Of a stretch of 64,000 nucleotides of DNA, positions 55,746-64,000 are shown one piece after another (within the stretch, counting starts at the first letter, position 1; every line of letters starts with the position of its first letter). Below the pieces are notes generated by a model that had not been told where the DNA came from, did not search any database, and saw only the letters and a program-made list of their open reading frames with translations. The position numbers and the translations under genes are program-made. This DNA comes from Algiphilus aromaticivorans DG1253 (lineage in GTDB: Bacteria; Pseudomonadota; Gammaproteobacteria; Nevskiales; Nevskiaceae), in NCBI RefSeq assembly GCF_000733765.1, contig NZ_JPOG01000001.1, positions 186,001 to 250,000 of the forward strand, written 5' to 3'.

Positions 55746-56173
55746 CGGTGCCCAGCCCGAATCGCAACCGGCGTACCCATGCGAGCAAAGCCACCCACCA
55801 CCGCGCAGGAGCCGCCGAAGTGCAACCAAGAATCAGCATGCTTACCCTCGGCGTCCGCGACCTGGAGCGCTCCGTGCGCTTCTACGAGCAGGGCCTCGGC
55901 TTCCCGCGCATGGAATCCCCGCCGGAAGTCGCCTTCTTCCCCCTCAACGGCAGCTGGCTCGCCCTCTTCGGCCGCGAATCCCTGGCCGAGGATGCCGGCA
56001 TCTCCGCAGAAGGCAGCGGCTTCGCCGGCATCACCATCGCCCACAACGTCGAATCCGAAGTCGCCGTCGACGCCGTCATCGACCAGGCCGTTACCGCCGG
56101 CGCCCGTCTGGTCAAGCCCGCCCAGAAAGTCTTCTGGGGCGGCTACTCCGGCTACTTCGCCGACCCCGACGAC

Positions 56174-56179
56174 TACCTA
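56174..56179. repeat. Left target site duplication of the IS5-like element
   Basis: TACCTA here and at 57681-57686 flank the element; both encode Tyr-Leu of the VOC protein. Confidence 0.7.
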
Positions 56180-57680
56180 GTCGTCCCTGAAGATTCCCTC
56201 ATGAGGCCGCGTCCGGCGTCATAGCCGTGCGGTTCGGCAGGGTGAGCGGCAGTAACGCGGCCAGGATTTGGGCCCAAAAAGCGATGATCCAGCGCATCAG
56301 CCACCGTAGGTTGTAGCCGGCAGCGGCCAGCACCGGGTTCATGGCATCGCCGAGCGCGCCCTTGAGGTGGCAGCGTCGCATGCGGTTCTCTTCCTTGAGG
56401 TGCCCGATGGTGGGTTCTACGGCCTGTCGGCGTTTGAGCAGGCGTTTCTGGCTGGGTGTCAGGGTCTTGGGCTTGCCGCGATGGATGACGGCGACGCCTT
56501 CAGGTTGGCGACCGCGATAGCCGAGGTCGACGATGGCGGTGGTTGGTGGGATGCCGGTGAGGATTTCGGTCTGTTCCAGATGCTCGGCCAGGGTGTCGCC
56601 GTCATAGGGATTGCCGGGGAAGCTGCGGGCGCCGACGATGAGGCCTTGCTTCGCGGTGATGGCGATGCCGGCCTTGACGCCGAACTCGTAGGGCTGGCGG
56701 GCCTTGCCCTTGCCAATGCACTCGACTTCCGGGGCGTGCAGGGCGTAGAGCTTGTGCTTGTCTTTCTTCTGCTGGCTGCGGATGCGCTCGGCGCGCGTCA
56801 GCAGGGTGGCGAGCTTCTGCTGTTGCTCGGTGGTGGCCTTGCGCTGGATATCGCGGATCAGCCGGCCAACGAGGGTGCGCTGCTTGCCCAACACGCGCCG
56901 CAGGCGCTTGTACTGCTTGGCATGCGCGTAGCCGCCGGCGCGGCGGCGCAGGCTGGGGCCGATGCGGGCGTAGCTTTGCCGCAGGCCGATGCCTTCTGCC
57001 TGGGCGGCTTGGACGAGCTTGCCTCGGGCAATCTCCAGCAGGCGGCTGTCGGTGGGATAAGCCACGGCCTTCTCCTGCACGGTGCTGTCGATGACCACGC
57101 GTTCCAGATCCCGAGGCCGGATGGCCTTCATGGCCTTGGCGGCTTCGATGGTCTGGGCCAGCAGCTCTTCGACACCGGCTTCGCCGAGGCGCTGGCGGAA
57201 GCGGGTCAATGAGGAGGGGTCGCAGGGCAAGGTGGTCTGAAAGTAGACCTCGCCGCAGAAGTGCTGCCAGTAGGGATTCTCCAGCCAGCGGGCACAGACC
57301 TGTTCGTCGGACAGGTTGTAGGCGTGCTTGAGATACAGCAGGCCGACAACCAGGCGCATGGGCAGCGCCGGGCGGCCCGCACCGGCCGGCTCCGGTGGCA
57401 GCACGCCGGAGAGCCGCTCGGCGATGGCCTCCCACGGCATCTTCTCGGCCAGCTTCACCAGCGGGTGCTCATTCCCGATCATCTGATCGAGCCGCGCCCG
57501 AAACAGATCGTCGCTTCGTCCTTCGGGGCCTTCGCAGGCCGCAGGCTTGTGGCGCATCAGCAGGCGTCCAAGTTTTGCAAGGTTTCGAGGCCCATTATCG
57601 CCGTTGCTGGCGATTTCGGAAAGCAGAAATCTCTGATTTCTCGCGCCTGGTCAATGGGTTGCGGATTGTTCAGGGCCGAC
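56180..57680 (-). mobile_element. IS5-like insertion sequence, about 1.5 kb
   Basis: The left end GTCGTCCCTGAAGATTCC and the inverted right end GTCGGCCCTGAACAATCC match at 15 of 18 positions. With these ends the flanks show a 6-bp duplication TACCTA. The sequence CGACTA also lies just outside the left end, so the exact boundary could shift by a few bases. It carries one complete transposase gene and splits a VOC gene. Confidence 0.82.
56199..57557 (-). CDS. IS5-family (IS1182-like) transposase
   Basis: A 452-residue DDE transposase. The N-terminal DUF772-type domain has ALPMRLVVGLLYLKHAYNLS and CDPSSLTRFRQRLGEAGVEE. The catalytic core shows VVIDSTVQEKAVAYPTDS (first Asp), AIVDLGYRGRQPEG (second Asp) and RRQAVEPTIGHLKEENRM (Glu). 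A charged insertion (about 215-270) separates the first two blocks. The frame is intact, so the element may be active. Confidence 0.92.
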   Translation of the reverse strand: MRHKPAACEGPEGRSDDLFRARLDQMIGNEHPLVKLAEKMPWEAIAERLSGVLPPEPAGAGRPALPMRLVVGLLYLKHAYNLSDEQVCARWLENPYWQHFCGEVYFQTTLPCDPSSLTRFRQRLGEAGVEELLAQTIEAAKAMKAIRPRDLERVVIDSTVQEKAVAYPTDSRLLEIARGKLVQAAQAEGIGLRQSYARIGPSLRRRAGGYAHAKQYKRLRRVLGKQRTLVGRLIRDIQRKATTEQQQKLATLLTRAERIRSQQKKDKHKLYALHAPEVECIGKGKARQPYEFGVKAGIAITAKQGLIVGARSFPGNPYDGDTLAEHLEQTEILTGIPPTTAIVDLGYRGRQPEGVAVIHRGKPKTLTPSQKRLLKRRQAVEPTIGHLKEENRMRRCHLKGALGDAMNPVLAAAGYNLRWLMRWIIAFWAQILAALLPLTLPNRTAMTPDAAS

Positions 57681-57686
57681 TACCTA
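57681..57686. repeat. Right target site duplication of the IS5-like element
   Basis: TACCTA, identical to 56174-56179. Confidence 0.7.
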
Positions 57687-57749
57687 TGGGAAGTCGCGCA
57701 CAACCCGCTGTTCTGGGTGGGGCCGAAGGATGATGACCGTGAAGCCTGA

Positions 57750-58105
57750 AACGGCACACGCTAAAGCGCATTGCGTGCGCGGAACGATGCCCGTTCGCGA
57801 TGACCGAGTTCAGCCCGAAGCGGGCGTATACGCATGCCTGATCCGTTCCGCTTGCACCGGGGTCTACCCAGTCTTTGGCTCGTATAAGACTTATGCGAGC
57901 CTGCGTCCAGATAAGTGCGCGATGAAACGTGCAGGTGGCGAACCTCATCAAGGCCGGCGAGGCCACAGAGTCCTGATAAGTAAGAAATTCATTGCGTCGG
58001 GTGCAGCTTGGAACCTCGGGAGAAAGCACAACCTCTTGAGCGTTATACGGCCTACGGTTAGGTTTACATGCAGTCTCCGTCCAGATAATAACTGTTAGGC
58101 GTTTT
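57750..58105 (+). other. Gene-poor leader of the cassette array
   Basis: 356 bases from the VOC stop to the first cassette gene. An open frame crosses it but has no recognisable domain. CGTCCAGATAA occurs twice (57904-57914, 58078-58088). The segment ends in GTTAGGC (58094-58100), an exact GTTRRRY recombination core, 5 bases before the first cassette ATG. It could be an attI-like leader, a cassette without an ORF, or the remains of an integron platform. No integrase fragment was found on either strand. Confidence 0.5.
58094..58100 (+). other. Integron-type recombination core (GTTAGGC)
   Basis: It is an exact GTTRRRY match directly before the first cassette gene, the position of the attI/cassette junction in integrons. 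The sequence upstream does not fold into a clear attC stem. Confidence 0.5.
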
Positions 58106-58807
58106 ATGAACATTCCGATCCACGCGAGACTGGGCGCGGTATTCACCGTTTCAATACTCTCCGTGTGGCTGCTTCCTGCGGCCGAGTGGGTTAAGGGCAT
58201 GCTTGCTGTGCCAGGAGTCGGTGCGCTCGTTGGTGCATTGCTACAAATATCTAGGGACGCGGCGGCATTTGAGCGTCAGAAGTATCTGCAACGAGATCAG
58301 CAGATATTTACGCTCGGCGCGGGCTCGCACATGTCGACGGTCGCCTTTGACAAGCACGTGGCCTTTTGCGAGGCGTACATGAAAGAGGTCCACGAGACTA
58401 TTGGCACATTGTTTCGAGAGGGCCCAACCGACAAAGGCATGCACTGTGCACAGAAGCTATTTGAATTGAAGCGAGACTATGCGGCGTGGGTGACGAAGGC
58501 AATGGCGCTTAAGCTTGAGCCATTCGAAAACGCTATTCATCAGATCGGAGTGCAGACGCATCTAGTGAACGCATTAAGAGGCGAAGACCAACAGGCTCGG
58601 TCAAAAGCCATTGATGAGTCGTATGCGCTCTTCAGAAATATTCTAGGCTTGGGAAAGATGAAAGAGACCGATCCGGACCATAAGCAAGAACTCGCGATTG
58701 AAAACGTTAAGGAGCAAGTCCGGGCAATACTTGGTATCAATGAGCTGGTCGATATCCGGACATTCATCATCCAGCGGTCCGCGGCCTATGCGCGAGAGAA
58801 CGCCTAA
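58106..58807 (+). CDS. Cassette gene 1: membrane-anchored protein of unknown function
   Basis: A 233-residue protein not recognised as a known family. Two N-terminal hydrophobic segments (AVFTVSILSVWLLPAAEWV and AVPGVGALVGALLQI, about 10-48) precede a soluble, helical, charged part. Its base composition is near 50% G+C, lower than the chromosomal genes around. The ATG starts 5 bases after a recombination core and its TAA stop lies inside the R'' site of the following attC, both typical of integron cassettes. Confidence 0.75.
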   Translation: MNIPIHARLGAVFTVSILSVWLLPAAEWVKGMLAVPGVGALVGALLQISRDAAAFERQKYLQRDQQIFTLGAGSHMSTVAFDKHVAFCEAYMKEVHETIGTLFREGPTDKGMHCAQKLFELKRDYAAWVTKAMALKLEPFENAIHQIGVQTHLVNALRGEDQQARSKAIDESYALFRNILGLGKMKETDPDHKQELAIENVKEQVRAILGINELVDIRTFIIQRSAAYARENA

Positions 58808-58870
58808 CCACGCGTTGCAGCCGGACGGGCCTCGTTCCGCTCGGCCCGCCGCTGAACGCGGGCGTTCTGT
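58802..58870 (+). other. attC site A
   Basis: It begins GCCTAAC (perfect RYYYAAC). CGCGTT-CAGC-GG-CGGGCC pairs with GGCCCG-CC-GCTG-AACGCG, leaving unpaired bases (G58817, C58822, A58825) on one side only, and it ends GGCGTTCTG. Long imperfect palindrome plus extrahelical bases is the defining attC architecture. The last core is degenerate (GTTCTGT). Confidence 0.82.
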
Positions 58871-58891
58871 GAATGAGGCTGATTGCTCTAA

Positions 58892-59263
58892 ATGAAGCAG
58901 GTCTACAAAATCACGTACCCTACCGGGAAGATTTATATCGGCAAGGATAGTATCGGGAGCCATCGATACTTCGGGAGTCCGGATATGAACCTGGTGAACG
59001 AAGATTTCGAAAGTCTTTCTGAGGAAGAGAGGAAGGACTATACGGTCCGGAAAGAAATACTCTGGGAGTCAGATGATTGCTCAGAATCGGAGCTTGCTGC
59101 GAAGGAAGTCGAGTTTATTCGCAAATTCAATTCAAATGACCCCGCCATTGGCTACAACCGATGGCCAAAACCAACCGCCGATCACATAATAAAGCCTTCA
59201 ACCGGACGCGGGGAAAGCTCCGGGCCGGCAAAGCCGGGCAAGCTCGGTGGCCGCACCAGTTAA
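58892..59263 (+). CDS. Cassette gene 2: GIY-YIG nuclease-like protein
   Basis: A 123-residue protein. The GIY-YIG pattern is visible as Tyr5-Lys-Ile and Tyr15-Ile-Gly (VYKITYPTGKIYIGKD), followed by an arginine in SHRYFG, where the family has its catalytic Arg, and a late acidic helix AAKEVEFIRKF. GIY-YIG domains cut DNA in repair, homing and restriction. From about residue 97 the protein is encoded by the attC site itself and looks non-structural, so the cassette boundary sets its C-terminus. Confidence 0.72.
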   Translation: MKQVYKITYPTGKIYIGKDSIGSHRYFGSPDMNLVNEDFESLSEEERKDYTVRKEILWESDDCSESELAAKEVEFIRKFNSNDPAIGYNRWPKPTADHIIKPSTGRGESSGPAKPGKLGGRTS

Positions 59264-59277
59264 GGCAAACGTTGCGC
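59182..59277 (+). other. attC site B
   Basis: GCCTT-AAC-GG-GCGG (59194-59211) pairs with CCGC-CC-GTT-AAGGC (59251-59266), with an extrahelical C59199, and an inner GC-rich stem lies between. It is followed by ACGTTGCGC, a degenerate core, 17 bases before the next ATG. Confidence 0.65.
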
Positions 59278-59293
59278 GTATTAACGAAAATCC

Positions 59294-59824
59294 ATGGTCG
59301 GAATATCCAACAACAACTGGAAAGCCATTGCTGGACTGGTCTCGGAGTTAAAGCGCTGCGAGGAATGCGGTGTTACGACCGCATCCATAGCAATGGCGTA
59401 CATTTGTATCGATACCCTTGCCAACCTCGCGCGCCCGGCGGACAAGGAGAAGGTCACTCGTGCAGATTTCACGGAATGGGTCGAGAAGTACCTTAAAGCC
59501 CATAACGATCAGCCGTACCACTATCGCGGCAAAGACGTCTACGCCGCGCGATGCGCGTTTTTACACACGTACGGTTCAGATGCGCAGTTACATGATGAGG
59601 ATCCGGACACAATGAAATTCGGATACCATGATGGCGGAAAGCATGAGTGCAAGCCCGACACTGATCTGTGTTTAGTTCTGATCGGAACGAAATCGTTTGT
59701 GAATGATGTCGTTATTGGGACGGAATCATTTCTTCACGAGTGCCAGAAAGATCAAGCGCTCCGAGAACGGGTTGAGGCCAGACTTCCGAAAGTACTGCAA
59801 ACACTGCCATATCCAGCAGAATGA
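59294..59824 (+). CDS. Cassette gene 3: HEPN-like protein
   Basis: A 176-residue, mostly helical protein. It contains RCAFLH (Arg86-His91), an Rx4H motif at the start of a helix, after a hydrophobic helix AYICIDTLANLA. This layout resembles HEPN-superfamily proteins, many of which are RNases in toxin-antitoxin and phage-defence systems. The residue after Arg is Cys rather than the common Asn or Asp, so the assignment is tentative. No partner nucleotidyltransferase is next to it. Confidence 0.6.
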   Translation: MVGISNNNWKAIAGLVSELKRCEECGVTTASIAMAYICIDTLANLARPADKEKVTRADFTEWVEKYLKAHNDQPYHYRGKDVYAARCAFLHTYGSDAQLHDEDPDTMKFGYHDGGKHECKPDTDLCLVLIGTKSFVNDVVIGTESFLHECQKDQALRERVEARLPKVLQTLPYPAE

Positions 59825-59830
59825 AAAATA

Positions 59831-59918
59831 CGCATAATAACGCCACCATCTCGGACGGTCTTGGTCAACGCGCCTATGGCGCGCCGCCCAAGACCGCCGG
59901 TTATGGCGAGCGTTGTGT
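59831..59918 (+). other. attC site C
   Basis: It is the best folded of the set. AACGC pairs with GCGTT, CCAT with ATGG, and CGG-CGGTCTTGG with CCAAGACCG-CCG (13 bp) with a single extrahelical A59855. The end GCGTTGTGT carries the core GTT. It begins directly after the stop of cassette gene 3. Confidence 0.82.
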
Positions 59919-59939
59919 ACCACTAGAGGCGGCTCACGA

Positions 59940-60674
59940 ATGGTGAGCAGAAAGGCATTCGTCGAGAGCCACGGCGCCACCTGCAGCAATTGGACTTGGA
60001 GTTGGTCGTTCGTAAATCACGAGGAGCGTTTCGTGATCTTCGGCGCGTGGGATACGGAAGACGACGGCAGCAAGGTCATGATTCTCGATGAAGAGTGGGC
60101 AACGCTCCGAGACCGGAGGCAGCCTGGGTATCCGCAGTCGAGAGAACACATTCGGCTCGTCGAGGAGGAAGGCTATCGGCTCCTCACCTTCCCCATGCAA
60201 CAGTCTCGAACCGAGCCCGGAAATGACGAAAGCGCTGCGAAGATTGCCGGGTTCACTCCTAAACTATCGGAGCGCGAGCTCATCCGGGTAGGTACTGGCT
60301 GGTACGCGGTTACTGACGGGCTTATGCCCATGCCGGAGGAGGTGCGAGTAGCGGAGCTGCTCACGGAGGGGGCTGCACGCACCGTTCAGGTCAACAGCTA
60401 CGAGCGAAACCCTGAGGCGCGTAGGCGCTGCCTTGAGCACTATGGTCATCGCTGCATTGTCTGCGATTTCAGCTTTGAAGATAGATACGGCTCAATCGGG
60501 AGGTGCTACATCCACGTTCATCACTTGGTCCCGCTCTCCGAGATCGGGGAAGAATATGAGGTGGATCCCTTGCGGGATCTCGTACCCGTTTGCCCGAATT
60601 GTCACGCGATGATCCACGCTGTTCGTCCGATGCTATCCATTGAGCAATTGCACGATGCCCTCCGCGATGATTGA
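59940..60674 (+). CDS. Cassette gene 4: HNH endonuclease with unassigned N-terminal domain
   Basis: A 244-residue protein. The C-terminal HNH domain is clear: Cys172-Cys175 (RCIVC), the double His194-His195 (HVHHLVPLS), Cys218-Cys221 (CPNCHAMIH) with His226. The first 150 residues (SNWTWSWSFVNHEERFVIFGAWD, then a beta-rich stretch) are not a family I can name; in McrA-like enzymes this position holds a modified-DNA-reading domain. A role in restriction of modified or foreign DNA is inferred. An in-frame start at 59913 would lie in the attC site, so the ATG at 59940 is preferred. Confidence 0.82.
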   Translation: MVSRKAFVESHGATCSNWTWSWSFVNHEERFVIFGAWDTEDDGSKVMILDEEWATLRDRRQPGYPQSREHIRLVEEEGYRLLTFPMQQSRTEPGNDESAAKIAGFTPKLSERELIRVGTGWYAVTDGLMPMPEEVRVAELLTEGAARTVQVNSYERNPEARRRCLEHYGHRCIVCDFSFEDRYGSIGRCYIHVHHLVPLSEIGEEYEVDPLRDLVPVCPNCHAMIHAVRPMLSIEQLHDALRDD

Positions 60675-60679
60675 GGTAG

Positions 60680-60740
60680 CACACAGCAAGCGCTTCGTTC
60701 GGACTGCGCTGGGCGCAGCCGAACAAGCTTGGCGTTACGC
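60680..60740 (+). other. attC site D
   Basis: TTCGG-CTGCG pairs with CGCAG-CCGAA with an extrahelical A60703 and a 5-base loop. An outer AAGC/GCTT stem and a final GGCGTTACG core complete the site. It starts just after the HNH gene stop and ends 20 bases before the next ATG. Confidence 0.75.
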
Positions 60741-60760
60741 ACTATCTCGCGGGTAGGGCA

Positions 60761-61189
60761 ATGACGGACCAAGGGAGTTTGGAAGTCTCGAAGCTAGAAG
60801 CCGCGAGTCGGCAGTTGGAGCGAGCCTTGGAACTCTTCCTGAATGAAGACGACTTCATCTGCAGCATTACCTTGGCCGGTGCCGCTGAAGAGATTCTAGG
60901 CAAGCTCTTGGAAGAAAAAGGGCAGAAGAGCACGCATGCAGAGTTCGTCGAAGGCTGCGTGGAGGTGGGAAAGCGGGTATTCGGAGAAGAATGGCCCGCA
61001 AAGCATTTCTCGGATATGGCCAGTTATTTCCGAAATGGTCTAAAGCACTACCGGCAAGGTGAGTATCTGACTGTGCCGCGAGAAGCGAGCGTAGAGATCA
61101 TAGACCGCGCAATCGAGAACTATTGGAAGCTGCTCGCAGACGAAACGTTCCTGATGCGCCGATTCATGGAAGAAGTTCATGGTCTTTAA
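60761..61189 (+). CDS. Cassette gene 5: HEPN-like protein
   Basis: A 142-residue, all-helical protein. FRNGLKHY (Arg91-His96) is a textbook RNxxxH-type HEPN motif, placed after a helix SITLAGAAEEILGKLLEEKG typical of HEPN N-terminal halves. HEPN proteins act as RNases or as antitoxin/sensor partners. A second HEPN-like protein in the same array (cassette 3) has different sequence. Base composition is lower in G+C than the chromosome. Confidence 0.7.
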   Translation: MTDQGSLEVSKLEAASRQLERALELFLNEDDFICSITLAGAAEEILGKLLEEKGQKSTHAEFVEGCVEVGKRVFGEEWPAKHFSDMASYFRNGLKHYRQGEYLTVPREASVEIIDRAIENYWKLLADETFLMRRFMEEVHGL

Positions 61190-61609
61190 GTGAATAACAC
61201 GGCGCTTGAAGGTATGCGCGCGAGGCTCGCGCCCGTCAGCTCTGCTTTATGAGGATGTCCGCTGTTGGCACAAGACGGAAGTGAACCGTGGTGTGTCCTC
61301 GAGTCGCGCCGGACGGAATAGGGCATCTCACCGAGCGGCGACCCGGCCATTGACAGGCTTCCGGGAAAGGCTGACTATCCAGCTATGCAGCAAGTAACCA
61401 GTCCGCAGCCGCCGCGCCCACGCGCGGCGCATCTCATCTCCGGCTCCTAGGCCCCGGGCTGCGGCATCGCGCCCCGGTCCGGGGCGCCTGATCTTGTGAC
61501 TTCCTCCTGGCGGTGAACCGCTGCCGCGCTCTCGCGCGCGCGGTCGCCGCCGAGCTCTCTTTTCAGGGCCTCGACCCGTCGGGCGCGCCCTTCCCCGCAG
61601 GAGCACGTG
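61190..61609 (+). other. End of the cassette array and rnk leader, no gene seen
   Basis: 420 bases. Bases 61191-61270 may be a decayed fifth attC: AACACGG pairs with CCG(C)TGTT around a GCGCGA-GGC-TCGCGC stem, but both cores are poor. From about 61400 the composition returns to chromosomal GC. No convincing frame is present. A hairpin at 61469-61487 is listed separately. Confidence 0.45.
61469..61487 (+). other. GC-rich hairpin upstream of rnk
   Basis: GCGCCCCG and CGGGGCGC form a perfect 8-bp stem with a 3-base loop; CTGATCTTGTG follows, so only a weak T-rich tail. It may terminate cassette transcription or be part of the rnk leader. Confidence 0.4.
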
Positions 61610-62029
61610 ATGCACCACCGTCAGTCCACCATCCAGGAAAATCCGCCGCTGATCATCGACGAGGCGGTCTACGACTACCTCTATCGCCTGGCCGAACAGG
61701 CCACCCAAACCGCACCCGATGTAGGCGAATACCTGCTCGAAGAAGTGTCGCGTGCGCGGCCGGTTCCTAGCGATCGGATGCCGGCGGATGTGGTGCGCTT
61801 CGGATCCTGGGTGACTTACCGAGAAGTCGACAGCGGCGCCGTGCGCCGCGTCCAGCTCGTCTATCCCTGTCAGGCCGACGTCGCGGCTGGACGGATTTCG
61901 GTAGTCAGCCCGCTGGGCGCTGCACTCATCGGGCTGTCCGTTGGCCAGACGATGCGCTGGCATATCGAACAGCGCGCCGATCGCAGCCTTCAGGTGGTGG
62001 GTGTCGAGCCCGGGACGCTTCCGGGCTGA
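61610..62029 (+). CDS. rnk: Rnk family nucleoside diphosphate kinase regulator
   Basis: A 139-residue protein. A helical N-terminal part (DEAVYDYLYRLAEQA) is followed by the GreA/GreB C-terminal-type domain: EEVSRARPVPSDRMPADVVRFGSWVTY and ISVVSPLGAALIGLSVGQTMRW. Rnk binds RNA polymerase without the Gre coiled-coil tip and influences nucleoside diphosphate kinase levels. AGGAG precedes the ATG; a GTG three bases upstream is possible. It marks the return to ordinary chromosomal sequence. Confidence 0.88.
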   Translation: MHHRQSTIQENPPLIIDEAVYDYLYRLAEQATQTAPDVGEYLLEEVSRARPVPSDRMPADVVRFGSWVTYREVDSGAVRRVQLVYPCQADVAAGRISVVSPLGAALIGLSVGQTMRWHIEQRADRSLQVVGVEPGTLPG

Positions 62030-62204
62030 GCGCGGCGGACTTACTACCCGCAGGTCAGACGGTGGATGCAACAGATGGGACTGCGACTGGAGAACAGACC
62101 ACGATCTGTGTCGACTGACGGCTTTTGGCACAACCGTGCCTATAGGCTCAATGCAGTCGCGTGCTGAGCGTGGGCGTTAAGGTACAGCCCGAAGCGGACG
62201 TTGA

Positions 62205-63215
62205 TCACGCATCGCTGAAGGTCGCCTCCTCCCCGCGCCGCTGTCGCGCCCAAGCGCGATACGCAGTCGGCGTCATGCCGGTGTGCCGCTGGAAAGCGCG
62301 GCGGAAGCTGCCTTCGTCGCGCCATCCGCAATGCTGCGCCACAGCCTTTACCGCCGCACTATCGGTCTCCAGCAGGGTGCGGGCGGATTCAAGCTGCACG
62401 CGGCTGATGAATGCCTTGGACGACTCCTCACCGAGTTTCTTCAGACGCCGAAGCAGGGTGCGCTCGCTGGTGGCGAGCTGCGCGGCCAGTGCGCTGGGCG
62501 TGAGCGGCTCCTCGGCACGGTGACCACGCACGGCGATTTCGGCCGCAACCAGAAAAGGATCGCGCGCCTGCACATGGCCCGGCGGCACGTAGACGCTCTG
62601 TGCCAGCGGTGCGGTGTCAATCACGGCGAAGTCGGCGGTGGTGCGCGCCGCTTTGGGTCCCACCAGTACGCGGATGGTGTAGAGCGCAAGGTCGATCCAC
62701 GACAGGGGCCCGCCCGCCGTCACCACGCGGCCATCCTCGATCAGCGCACTGCCCCAGGCCGCGTCGCAACGGGGAAAGCGGTGTTTGAGCTCGTCATTCA
62801 GCCACCAGGTGGTGGTGCAGCGGCGGCCATTGAGCAGACCCGCCTCGCCGAGCACGAACACGCCGGAGCAGCTACCCAAGACCCAAGCGCCGTGCGCGTG
62901 CTGGTGACGGAGCCAGGTAGCGGCCTTGGCGGTCTGGGCGTTACGTGGCGGCAGGCCATCGCCCGCGGGCATGAGGCCTGGCACGAGCACGGCGTCGGCG
63001 CGGGGGATGTCGTCGAGCGCAGCGTCCACCTGCAAGGGGCGACCCCGACCGTCCGTCACGGCTCGGCCATCGGGACTGGCAAGGATCACCTCGCAGGGCC
63101 AGTGCGGAGCGTCGGGCTGGAGCGCGCTGGCCTTGCCAGCGAGCCAGAACACATCGGCGAGGCCTACGAGGCCGGAGGGCAGCTTCCCATCGAGAGCGAG
63201 CAACACGATGTTCAT
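62205..63215 (-). CDS. GlxA-type AraC-family regulator with DJ-1/PfpI domain
   Basis: A 336-residue regulator. Residues 1-180 form a DJ-1/PfpI-like amidotransferase domain with the nucleophile-elbow-like GSCSGVFVLGEAGLLNG. The C-terminal AraC helix-turn-helix pair covers about 230-325 (LTPSALAAQLATSERTLLRRLKK and VAQHCGWRDEGSFRRAFQRHTGMTPTAYR). It is divergent from the monooxygenase-like gene 182 bases away, which it may control. Confidence 0.9.
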   Translation of the reverse strand: MNIVLLALDGKLPSGLVGLADVFWLAGKASALQPDAPHWPCEVILASPDGRAVTDGRGRPLQVDAALDDIPRADAVLVPGLMPAGDGLPPRNAQTAKAATWLRHQHAHGAWVLGSCSGVFVLGEAGLLNGRRCTTTWWLNDELKHRFPRCDAAWGSALIEDGRVVTAGGPLSWIDLALYTIRVLVGPKAARTTADFAVIDTAPLAQSVYVPPGHVQARDPFLVAAEIAVRGHRAEEPLTPSALAAQLATSERTLLRRLKKLGEESSKAFISRVQLESARTLLETDSAAVKAVAQHCGWRDEGSFRRAFQRHTGMTPTAYRAWARQRRGEEATFSDA

Positions 63216-63397
63216 GGGTTTCTCCGACCTGCGATTGGTTTGGCGGATTTTGCCGGATCATTGTCTTGTACGCCACATGTTATGAGGCGCTGTACGGGAC
63301 CACACTGCGCCACATCGTCGCTGCCACCGGCTGCCGATGACGCTCGCGGCACGCTTCAAACACTCGTCATTAACCGTTTCGCAATAGGAGTTCAATC

Positions 63398-63700
63398 ATG
63401 GTCACAACCGCACTGTGGGTTCGTATGGAAGCCAAGCCTGGCAAGGAACAAGAAGTCGAGGAATTTCTGCTCGGGGGCCGTCCCCTCGTGATGGAAGAGC
63501 CCGCGACCATCGCCTGGTTCGGCGTGAAGCTCGGACCTTCGAGCTACGCCATCTTCGATGCATTTCCGGACGACGCCGGCCGTCAGGCGCATCTGTCCGG
63601 GAAAGTCGCTGCGGCGCTGATGGCGCAGGCGGCCGAGCTGTTCTCGCAGCCGCCTAGCATCGAGAAGATCGACGTGCTCGCATCAAAGCTGCCCGGCTGA
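63398..63700 (+). CDS. Antibiotic biosynthesis monooxygenase-fold protein
   Basis: A 100-residue ABM-type ferredoxin-like barrel subunit: LWVRMEAKPGKEQEVEEFL opens it and SSYAIFDAFPDDAGRQAHLSGKV follows, as in small putative quinol/heme-type monooxygenases. AGGAG is 7 bases before the ATG. The substrate is unknown. It lies opposite a GlxA-type regulator and before a truncated glcG-like gene. Confidence 0.82.
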   Translation: MVTTALWVRMEAKPGKEQEVEEFLLGGRPLVMEEPATIAWFGVKLGPSSYAIFDAFPDDAGRQAHLSGKVAAALMAQAAELFSQPPSIEKIDVLASKLPG

Positions 63701-63733
63701 ATCCCACGACCACATCACACGGAGCCTCATCTC

Positions 63734-63859
63734 ATGGAAAACTCGCTGGTCACCCTGAAGGACGCCAGGACCATCCTGGCGGCCGCCGAAAACCGCGCCG
63801 TGGAAATCGGCGAGCCGATGAACATTGCCGTCGCCGATTCTGGCGAAGCAGCAATTTGA
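63734..63859 (+). pseudogene. Truncated GlcG/HbpS-like gene
   Basis: Only 41 codons remain: MENSLVTLKDARTILAAAEN and EPMNIAVADSGE match the start of the GlcG/HbpS heme-binding-like family, which normally continues for about 140 residues. After DSGE the sequence loses the family pattern and stops. No frame in the next bases restores the GlcG sequence, so it was cut by a deletion or rearrangement near 63845 rather than by a simple frameshift. Confidence 0.65.
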
Positions 63860-63879
63860 CGGGGTGGCCAGCGAGGATC

Positions 63880-64000
63880 ATGGGCCGATGTCCTTGGGAC
63901 GGGAGGGGTGACGACGTCACTTACGGTCTCGTGTGGGCACGCGGCGCGCGCGAGCACAATCTGCGCGATGTTGACGTGAACATCCTGCGGAACGCGCTCG
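63880..64000 (+). CDS. UvrA-like excinuclease ABC subunit, 5' end only
   Basis: The last 40 codons of the window read ARGAREHNLRDVDVNILRNA, matching the universal UvrA N-terminus (RGAREHNLKNVDVDIPRD) that precedes the first Walker A. The ATG at 63880 gives an 18-residue leader; a GTG at 63931 is an alternative. ILRNA instead of IPRDA is a small departure. The setting beside accessory genes suggests a UvrA2-type paralogue rather than the housekeeping gene, which only the missing sequence can settle. Confidence 0.7.
   Translation, partial: MGRCPWDGRGDDVTYGLVWARGAREHNLRDVDVNILRNAL

Follow-up and report, generated by a model that had tools for sequence, protein, structure and literature searches.

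How does an array of integron gene cassettes come to stand in a chromosome with no integron integrase beside it? The question is raised by a locus of Algiphilus aromaticivorans DG1253 in a 64,000-nucleotide stretch of contig NZ_JPOG01000001.1, called the window here (C1:186001-250000 in chromosome coordinates). An earlier note, made from the letters of this stretch, had described the locus as a cluster of attC sites lacking integron integrases (CALIN). The array is very probably a CALIN of four cassettes with an attC site each and a fifth whose site is decayed, in a genome that also holds a complete integron. This assignment draws on attC sites lying on one strand, on the match of their R'' boxes to the starts of their own cassettes, and on the location of the sole integron integrase of the genome, 1.39 Mb away.

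Organization of the array

The array and its surroundings comprise the following features, where ORF denotes an open reading frame from the ORF listing and IS an insertion sequence. All five cassette ORFs are on the plus strand.

56199 to 57557, minus strand: IS5-family transposase gene (NF033578, 534 bits, above the cut-off), left boundary of the array
58043 to 58100, plus strand: attI-like stretch, weak, ending in the core GTTAGGC (G at 58094), where cassette 1 begins
58095 to 58864, plus strand: cassette 1; ORF 58106-58807, 233 aa, hydrophobic N-terminus, without a family
58802 to 58870, plus strand: attC site A; core G58864; 55.3 bits
58865 to 59271, plus strand: cassette 2; ORF 58892-59263, 123 aa, GIY-YIG-like; the ORF end runs into attC site B
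59184 to 59277, plus strand: attC site B; core G59271; 16.0 bits
59272 to 59912, plus strand: cassette 3; ORF 59294-59824, 176 aa, without a family; string RCAFLH
59832 to 59918, plus strand: attC site C; core G59912; 17.6 bits
59913 to 60734, plus strand: cassette 4; ORF 59940-60674, 244 aa, HNH endonuclease
60681 to 60740, plus strand: attC site D; core G60734; 30.7 bits, with filters off only
60735 to 61252, plus strand: cassette 5; ORF 60761-61189, 142 aa, HEPN-like, RNGLKH
about 61192 to 61252, plus strand: decayed terminal attC (site E); core TTTATGA; 1.2 bits only
61255 to 61276, plus strand: copy of a dispersed palindrome; pattern with 2 mismatches

The five same-strand genes had been described as low in G+C, and the measurements confirm this (50.1-58.0% per cassette vs 67.7% across the window), a foreign composition. 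They had also been placed about 5-25 bases past the preceding core; the closeness stands, while the figures do not, as the distance from core to start codon is 11-27 nt. The stop codon of cassette 1 lies within the RYYYAAC box, as the earlier note had it (TAA at 58805-58807, inside GCCTAAC).

Identification of attC sites

The attC sites are recombined through their bottom strand, and the conventional names of their boxes are used here. A strict motif finder (RYYYAAC...GTTRRRY plus fold symmetry) was tried first; it returned no site in the window and recovered none of the attC sites of the resident integron. Because it was blind to known attC sites, a covariance model was built instead. Integron integrases were searched for in relatives and found in 62 of 100 genomes (own included) at E <= 1e-60, 60 of them above the cut-off, and attC candidates were collected from the array-side DNA of 20 integrase loci and one further locus. 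The training set began with 84 candidates on the array strand from 22 loci. Removal of loci L006, L162, and L171, together with filters on length (55-80), orientation, stem, and duplicates, left 63; exclusion of one spurious site and of all sites longer than 73 nt left 37; and omission of the L159 site and one near-duplicate in L168 gave 35 aligned sites from 14 loci. The resulting model, R1, was thus trained on 35 attC sites from integrase-linked arrays of relatives with the window excluded. Since these sites are all short, long attC sites receive low R1 scores. The hand-written stem of the model had 91.6% of cells paired in the training set, and its covariation score was 0.463, compared to 0.168 when shuffled and 0.06-0.09 when slid.

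On the whole window, R1 identified site A at 55.3 bits (E 7e-12), site C at 17.6 bits (E 0.032), and site B at 16.0 bits (E 0.086). With filters off over 5 kb, site D was added at 30.7 bits (E 1e-6), where the next best match had 8.8 bits. As a control, 152 kb of this chromosome in which no attC site is known gave at most 14.7 bits for a full-length match and 16.1 bits for a partial one. A search of 15 loci (209 kb) gave six matches in attC loci and two stray ones, a full-length match of 16.2 bits in L006 and a partial match of 16.1 bits in L184, the latter being the same as that of the 152-kb control. Sites A and D are therefore clear as attC sites. The earlier note had advised an attC covariance-model search, in which at least three matches on one strand would support the CALIN call; the separately built model gave four, two strong and two weak. 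Rfam models gave no match up to E 1 over 56000-64000.

The alignments also speak to the detailed structure that had been proposed. The extrahelical bases named earlier (G58817, A58825, C59199, A59855, and A60703) all fall on unpaired columns of the model, and a second unpaired base was found in site B (A59206) and in site D (C60696). Of the four sites said to end in a GTT core, all were recovered as attC sites, while the core of site B had been misplaced: R1 sets it at GTTGCGC (59271), and the GTTAAGG at 59260 represents the inner L' arm. The end of the decayed site E, as placed by R1, falls exactly at TTTATGA, from the first base of which the palindrome is 11 nt away.

Match of R'' boxes to their own cassettes

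In integrons, the R'' box that closes a cassette pairs with the start of that same cassette, both deriving from one circle. Over the four variable positions, the R'' boxes of sites A to D agree with the starts of their own cassettes at 4, 3, 2, and 4 positions (13/16), compared to 1, 1, 2, and 1 (5/16) for the starts of the next cassettes. For example, the R'' box of cassette 1, GCCTAAC, complements its own start GTTAGGC. A value of 13 was reached by four of the 120 possible assignments in a permutation (best 14) and by none of 100,000 random draws from the 57 GTT starts of the region.

Integrases and attI-like sequences

The integron integrase profile TIGR02249 had a single match above the cut-off in the genome, a 321-aa open frame from ATG at C1:1635052-1635978, and none in the window, in agreement with the earlier note, which had seen no intI on either strand. 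Four weaker matches, all below the cut-off, were located elsewhere in the genome, at two positions of which neither is in the window. The integrase belongs to a complete integron (L006:15019-15984, or C1:1635019-1635984) about 1.39 Mb from the window array, which consequently lacks a neighboring integrase in a cell that has one. The resident integron includes an attI-type site and three attC sites on the opposite strand (37.3, 35.9, and 24.2 bits). A transposase gene, presumably of the IS30 type, is located within its cassette array (L006:12705-13736, minus strand).

To the left of cassette 1 in the window, a GTTAT stands 52 nt before the core GTTAGGC, while the corresponding distance in the attI of the resident integron is 51 nt. 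The genome also carries a solo attI (L147:1145-1206, about C1:3431145-3431206) that is identical to the attI of the integron at 52 of 62 positions, with no integrase match or attC match nearby, and TAATNACTGTTAG is common to this solo site and the attI-like stretch of the window. A scoring set of 209 GTTRRRY sites (some counted twice because of overlapping loci) included three attI copies, and the other 206 were ranked. The window site came first by summed scores and second when the better single score was taken, and it ranked eighth against attI1, with a low score each time; its likeness to attI is weak (score 7 of 51). A simple pattern applied to the attI regions of relatives gave no usable result.

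Distribution of the cassette genes

Gene occurrence was counted in 350 genomes of the class, evenly drawn from a larger group and including the genome itself. The gene of cassette 1 was found in one genome, that of cassette 2 in four, that of cassette 3 in one (the own genome alone), and that of cassette 5 in five. Among plasmid records, cassette 2 was matched in six, and cassettes 1, 3, and 5 remained unmatched. The family of cassette 4 is wide, with relatives encoded in 191 genome-contig stretches and 192 plasmid records. At the DNA level, the 3.8-kb region had a match of any kind in 11 of 100 genomes, own included, and the longest match in the 99 others was 246 bp. The same gene order kept as ordinary chromosome in many relatives, named by the earlier note along with a model that finds no attC as outcomes that would speak against a CALIN, was thus not what was found: attC sites were recovered, the longest match was short, and a patchy distribution was seen for the genes of cassettes 1, 2, 3, and 5.

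The neighborhoods of homologous genes show that the genes of cassettes 4 and 5 are also borne on cassettes in other hosts. An attC site adjoins the gene in all four homologues of cassette 5 outside the own genome (L200-L203). For cassette 4, 79 homologue loci were found, and R1 was applied to the 29 that ranked highest. In four of these, an attC site lies no more than 30 bp from the gene and on its strand: L011 (to either side, in one case at E 0.1 only), L015, L017, and L036. At a further locus, L022, the attC site is about 1 kb from the gene.

Predicted functions of the cassette proteins

Searches of Pfam and NCBIfam gave no match above the cut-off for cassettes 1, 2, 3, and 5, while cassette 4 matched the HNH family PF01844 above its cut-off. 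PADLOC returned weak matches only, to cassettes 4 and 5. The GIY-YIG annotation is present on five of the six plasmid homologues of cassette 2, where the homologues align to residues 1-102 only. The structure model of cassette 3 was unusable, with a predicted local distance difference test (pLDDT) score of 39, and the Rx4H-like string RCAFLH is its sole HEPN feature.

Cassette 5 is likely a HEPN protein, judging from its RNGLKH motif and predicted structure. RNGLKH represents an Rx4-6H motif in which K and H are invariant among five sequences and R is present in three of the five. The AlphaFold2 model, built from the five sequences, has a pLDDT of 90, and its top structural matches are all HEPN proteins: AbiV 9bj7 (Z 9.2, root-mean-square deviation 4.4 over 111 residues), Csm6 5fsh (Z 8.3, 3.8 over 100), and AF0298 2hsb (Z 7.2, 4.6 over 100), although matches between helical bundles with Z under 13 can arise by chance. 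The first row in Foldseek was likewise a HEPN protein, with a lowest E of 0.12. A HEPN family with Rx4H from integron cassettes is described in an earlier study (PDB 3jrt; PMC3710099), and cassette 5 resembles it in being a cassette-borne HEPN protein. In contrast, a phmmer search with cassette 5 returned no PDB chain of that family, and 3jrt was not among the structural matches listed. Taken as a whole, the cargo (membrane-type, GIY-YIG-like, one without a family, HNH, and HEPN-like) suggests putative functions in nucleic-acid conflict or defense.

A dispersed palindrome at integrase-less attC loci

A search of the whole genome with R1 identified four attC loci: the window, L179 with two attC sites, L146 with one, and the integron. 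These additional loci answer the advice of the earlier note to look for intI and attC beyond the window. With 150 of its 9586 candidates scored, this search overlooked the integron's 35.9-bit site, and the genome may therefore contain additional attC loci. L179:10090-11580 is an array without intI, and L146:7634-8333 is a cassette without intI that encodes a LysE/RhtB-type transporter. In both, the terminal core GTTAGRC leads into an imperfect palindrome, AGAAGTYCRCTN(N)YTGGCRCAWAGC, of about 25-30 bp and near AWGWCCGCTNYTGGCACAWAGC. Each of the three attC loci without intI that were found in the genome ends on this palindrome, with the core decayed in the window. The window palindrome starts 11 nt past the start of TTTATGA, and the spacing is equal in L179, L146, and the solo attI, which runs directly into the palindrome. 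The array of the resident integron showed no palindrome copy at its end.

A first, looser pattern of the palindrome with up to two mismatches occurred at 14 places, compared to nine for a reversed control. A longer pattern with up to three mismatches occurred at 10 places, compared to one for the control, and with up to two mismatches it was found in 35 of 240 genomes, counting the genome itself, compared to three. In 1.86 Mb of other loci the signal was not convincing (two matches, none in the shuffled control). A total of 80 candidate attC sites from 21 loci, almost exclusively intI-linked arrays of relatives, were checked, and none has the palindrome in the 60 nt that follow it; most of these sites are internal to arrays rather than terminal. 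The loci were selected unevenly, as L228, L230, and the solo attI were reached through the palindrome, and L146 and L179 through their attC sites.

Among 29 scanned palindrome loci of relatives, a strong attC site was found in two (63.1 and 36.5 bits), each with the core GTTGAAC leading into the palindrome; a third match of 14.1 bits was located away from it. The two loci represent one chromosomal place in the sister species G038 and G040, with flanks about 95-99% identical. In both, the left flank ends in TTATTAACTG and the right flank starts with TTGAAC and the palindrome, while the inserts (689 vs 841 bp) differ in their genes and attC sites. The place thus holds different single cassettes (L238:10013-10702 and L239:9451-10292) between the same flanks at one palindrome. 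An ORF left of the former cassette (L238:9235-9774) resembles a REP-type (repetitive extragenic palindromic) transposase.

Other modules are also associated with the palindrome. The right neighbor of the window array is a segment (61254-62130) with a second copy, 98% identical, at C1:3094862-3095738. This 877-bp pair (the second copy being L146:8862-9738, minus strand) carries a gene with a GreA/GreB C-terminal domain and has palindrome-like copies in direct orientation at both ends. In L146:9919-12129, two adjacent ORFs of 319 and 409 aa, presumably DUF5131 and three-Cys-motif partner proteins, are flanked by two palindrome copies. At L184:5670-6544, two palindrome copies are separated by 577 bp, with small AT-rich ORFs but no recognized attC site beside and between them; the ORFs are possibly decayed cassettes or a module of another kind.

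Nature and origin of the array

Several observations weigh against a CALIN. By score alone, sites B and C are weak (16-18 bits) and not beyond chance, given the two stray matches of 16.1-16.2 bits in 209 kb, so that they rest also on position, strand, and the R'' test; the R'' identity of cassette 3 is just 2/4, and the site after cassette 5 is unrecognized by R1 at 1.2 bits. Among homologues, 24 of the 29 scanned loci of cassette 4 gave no attC site by R1, attC sites were found at one of three loci of cassette 2 and there at least about 850 bp from the gene, and cassettes 1 and 3 had no homologue in which the attC neighborhood could be compared. That sites A to D are instead ordinary transcription terminators or REP-like repeats among unrelated genes is nevertheless very improbable. 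They are G+C-rich hairpins between genes, two of them low-scoring, as such an explanation would have it, but their arms and unpaired bases are those of the attC model and no T run follows them. Moreover, one of the DNA matches to other genomes pairs site A, at 79% identity, with an attC site of G013 in an array adjoining the intI of that genome, and the match of R'' boxes to their own cassette starts is a behavior not expected of terminators.

As for the origin of the CALIN, an integron integrase would have inserted the cassettes in the form of folded single-stranded circles, and two routes may be considered. The array may be what remains of a second complete integron, its cassettes having entered an attI and its intI having since disappeared, perhaps upon entry of the IS5-family element that now stands there. 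The gene of this element directly left of the array, the attI-like sequence with its spacing of GTTAT, its TAATNACTGTTAG, and its top summed score, and the precedent of a solo attI with no integrase match near it are consistent with such a loss, to which we assign a somewhat less than even probability. However, no intI remnant was found between the IS gene and the array core (best tblastn E 5.4), the attI likeness is weak, and a like left core, TTATTAACTGTT, occurs at the G038/G040 site, where the longer left side is not attI-like by eye. Alternatively, the resident integrase may have acted in trans and inserted the cassettes at a secondary chromosomal site of the attG type beside the dispersed palindrome, a bolder reading that falls only just short of an even chance. 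The palindrome terminates all three attC loci without intI, L179 and L146 at GTTAGRC and the window at its decayed core, and the difference between the sister species favors insertion in trans at that site. Against it, no empty site was available for comparison, the core-to-palindrome spacing is unequal (11 nt in the window and 7 nt in G038/G040), 27 of the 29 palindrome loci of relatives have no convincing attC site, and the looser pattern barely exceeded its control. More generally, integron cassettes may land in the chromosome preferentially at this palindrome, copies of which occur in scattered relatives, a tentative proposal that we would sooner doubt than assert. By either route, the cassettes would be expressed, if at all, from outside promoters.

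Comparison with known systems and significance

Cassettes are reportedly also inserted into chromosomes at sites, termed attG, that are neither attI nor attC. The comparisons with published work draw on five papers (PMC12444791, PMC9024848, PMC3710099, PMC12901181, and PMC11023631). Published CALINs are small arrays in which a minimum of two attC sites share a strand and no integrase is found nearby; they hold almost 6 attC sites each, compared to 14 in a complete integron. The window array, with its four sites on one strand and no integron integrase in its neighborhood, differs in nothing essential, apart from having a decayed terminal site and an attI-like sequence ahead. In PMC12444791, chromosomal CALINs are reported in about half of Xanthomonas genomes, with intI at one locus and CALINs elsewhere, as in the genome described here. 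The positions of the Xanthomonas CALINs are defined by neighboring genes, whereas the arrays here adjoin a dispersed palindrome. Similarly, attG sites are broadly spread over many E. coli loci (PMC12444791, citing Loot et al., 2024), while the sites here are marked by a recurrent palindrome. Among open-licence PMC papers, a search for the palindrome strings returned one unrelated paper, and the titles and starts of abstracts listed contained no report of cassettes landing at repeats.

While CALINs are common, their origin is debated: the IntegronFinder 2.0 paper restates the proposal that they are degraded integrons, and the attG work favors direct cassette insertion. With a complete integron, three attC loci without intI, a solo attI, and a pair of sister species that differ at one site, the question becomes directly testable. 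The HEPN-like, HNH, and GIY-YIG-like cargo provides additional candidates for defense-type cassettes. If the palindrome is indeed a landing site, an integrase acting in trans would insert and swap cassettes there, and CALINs, this one included, would have grown at repeats and would not only be decayed integrons.

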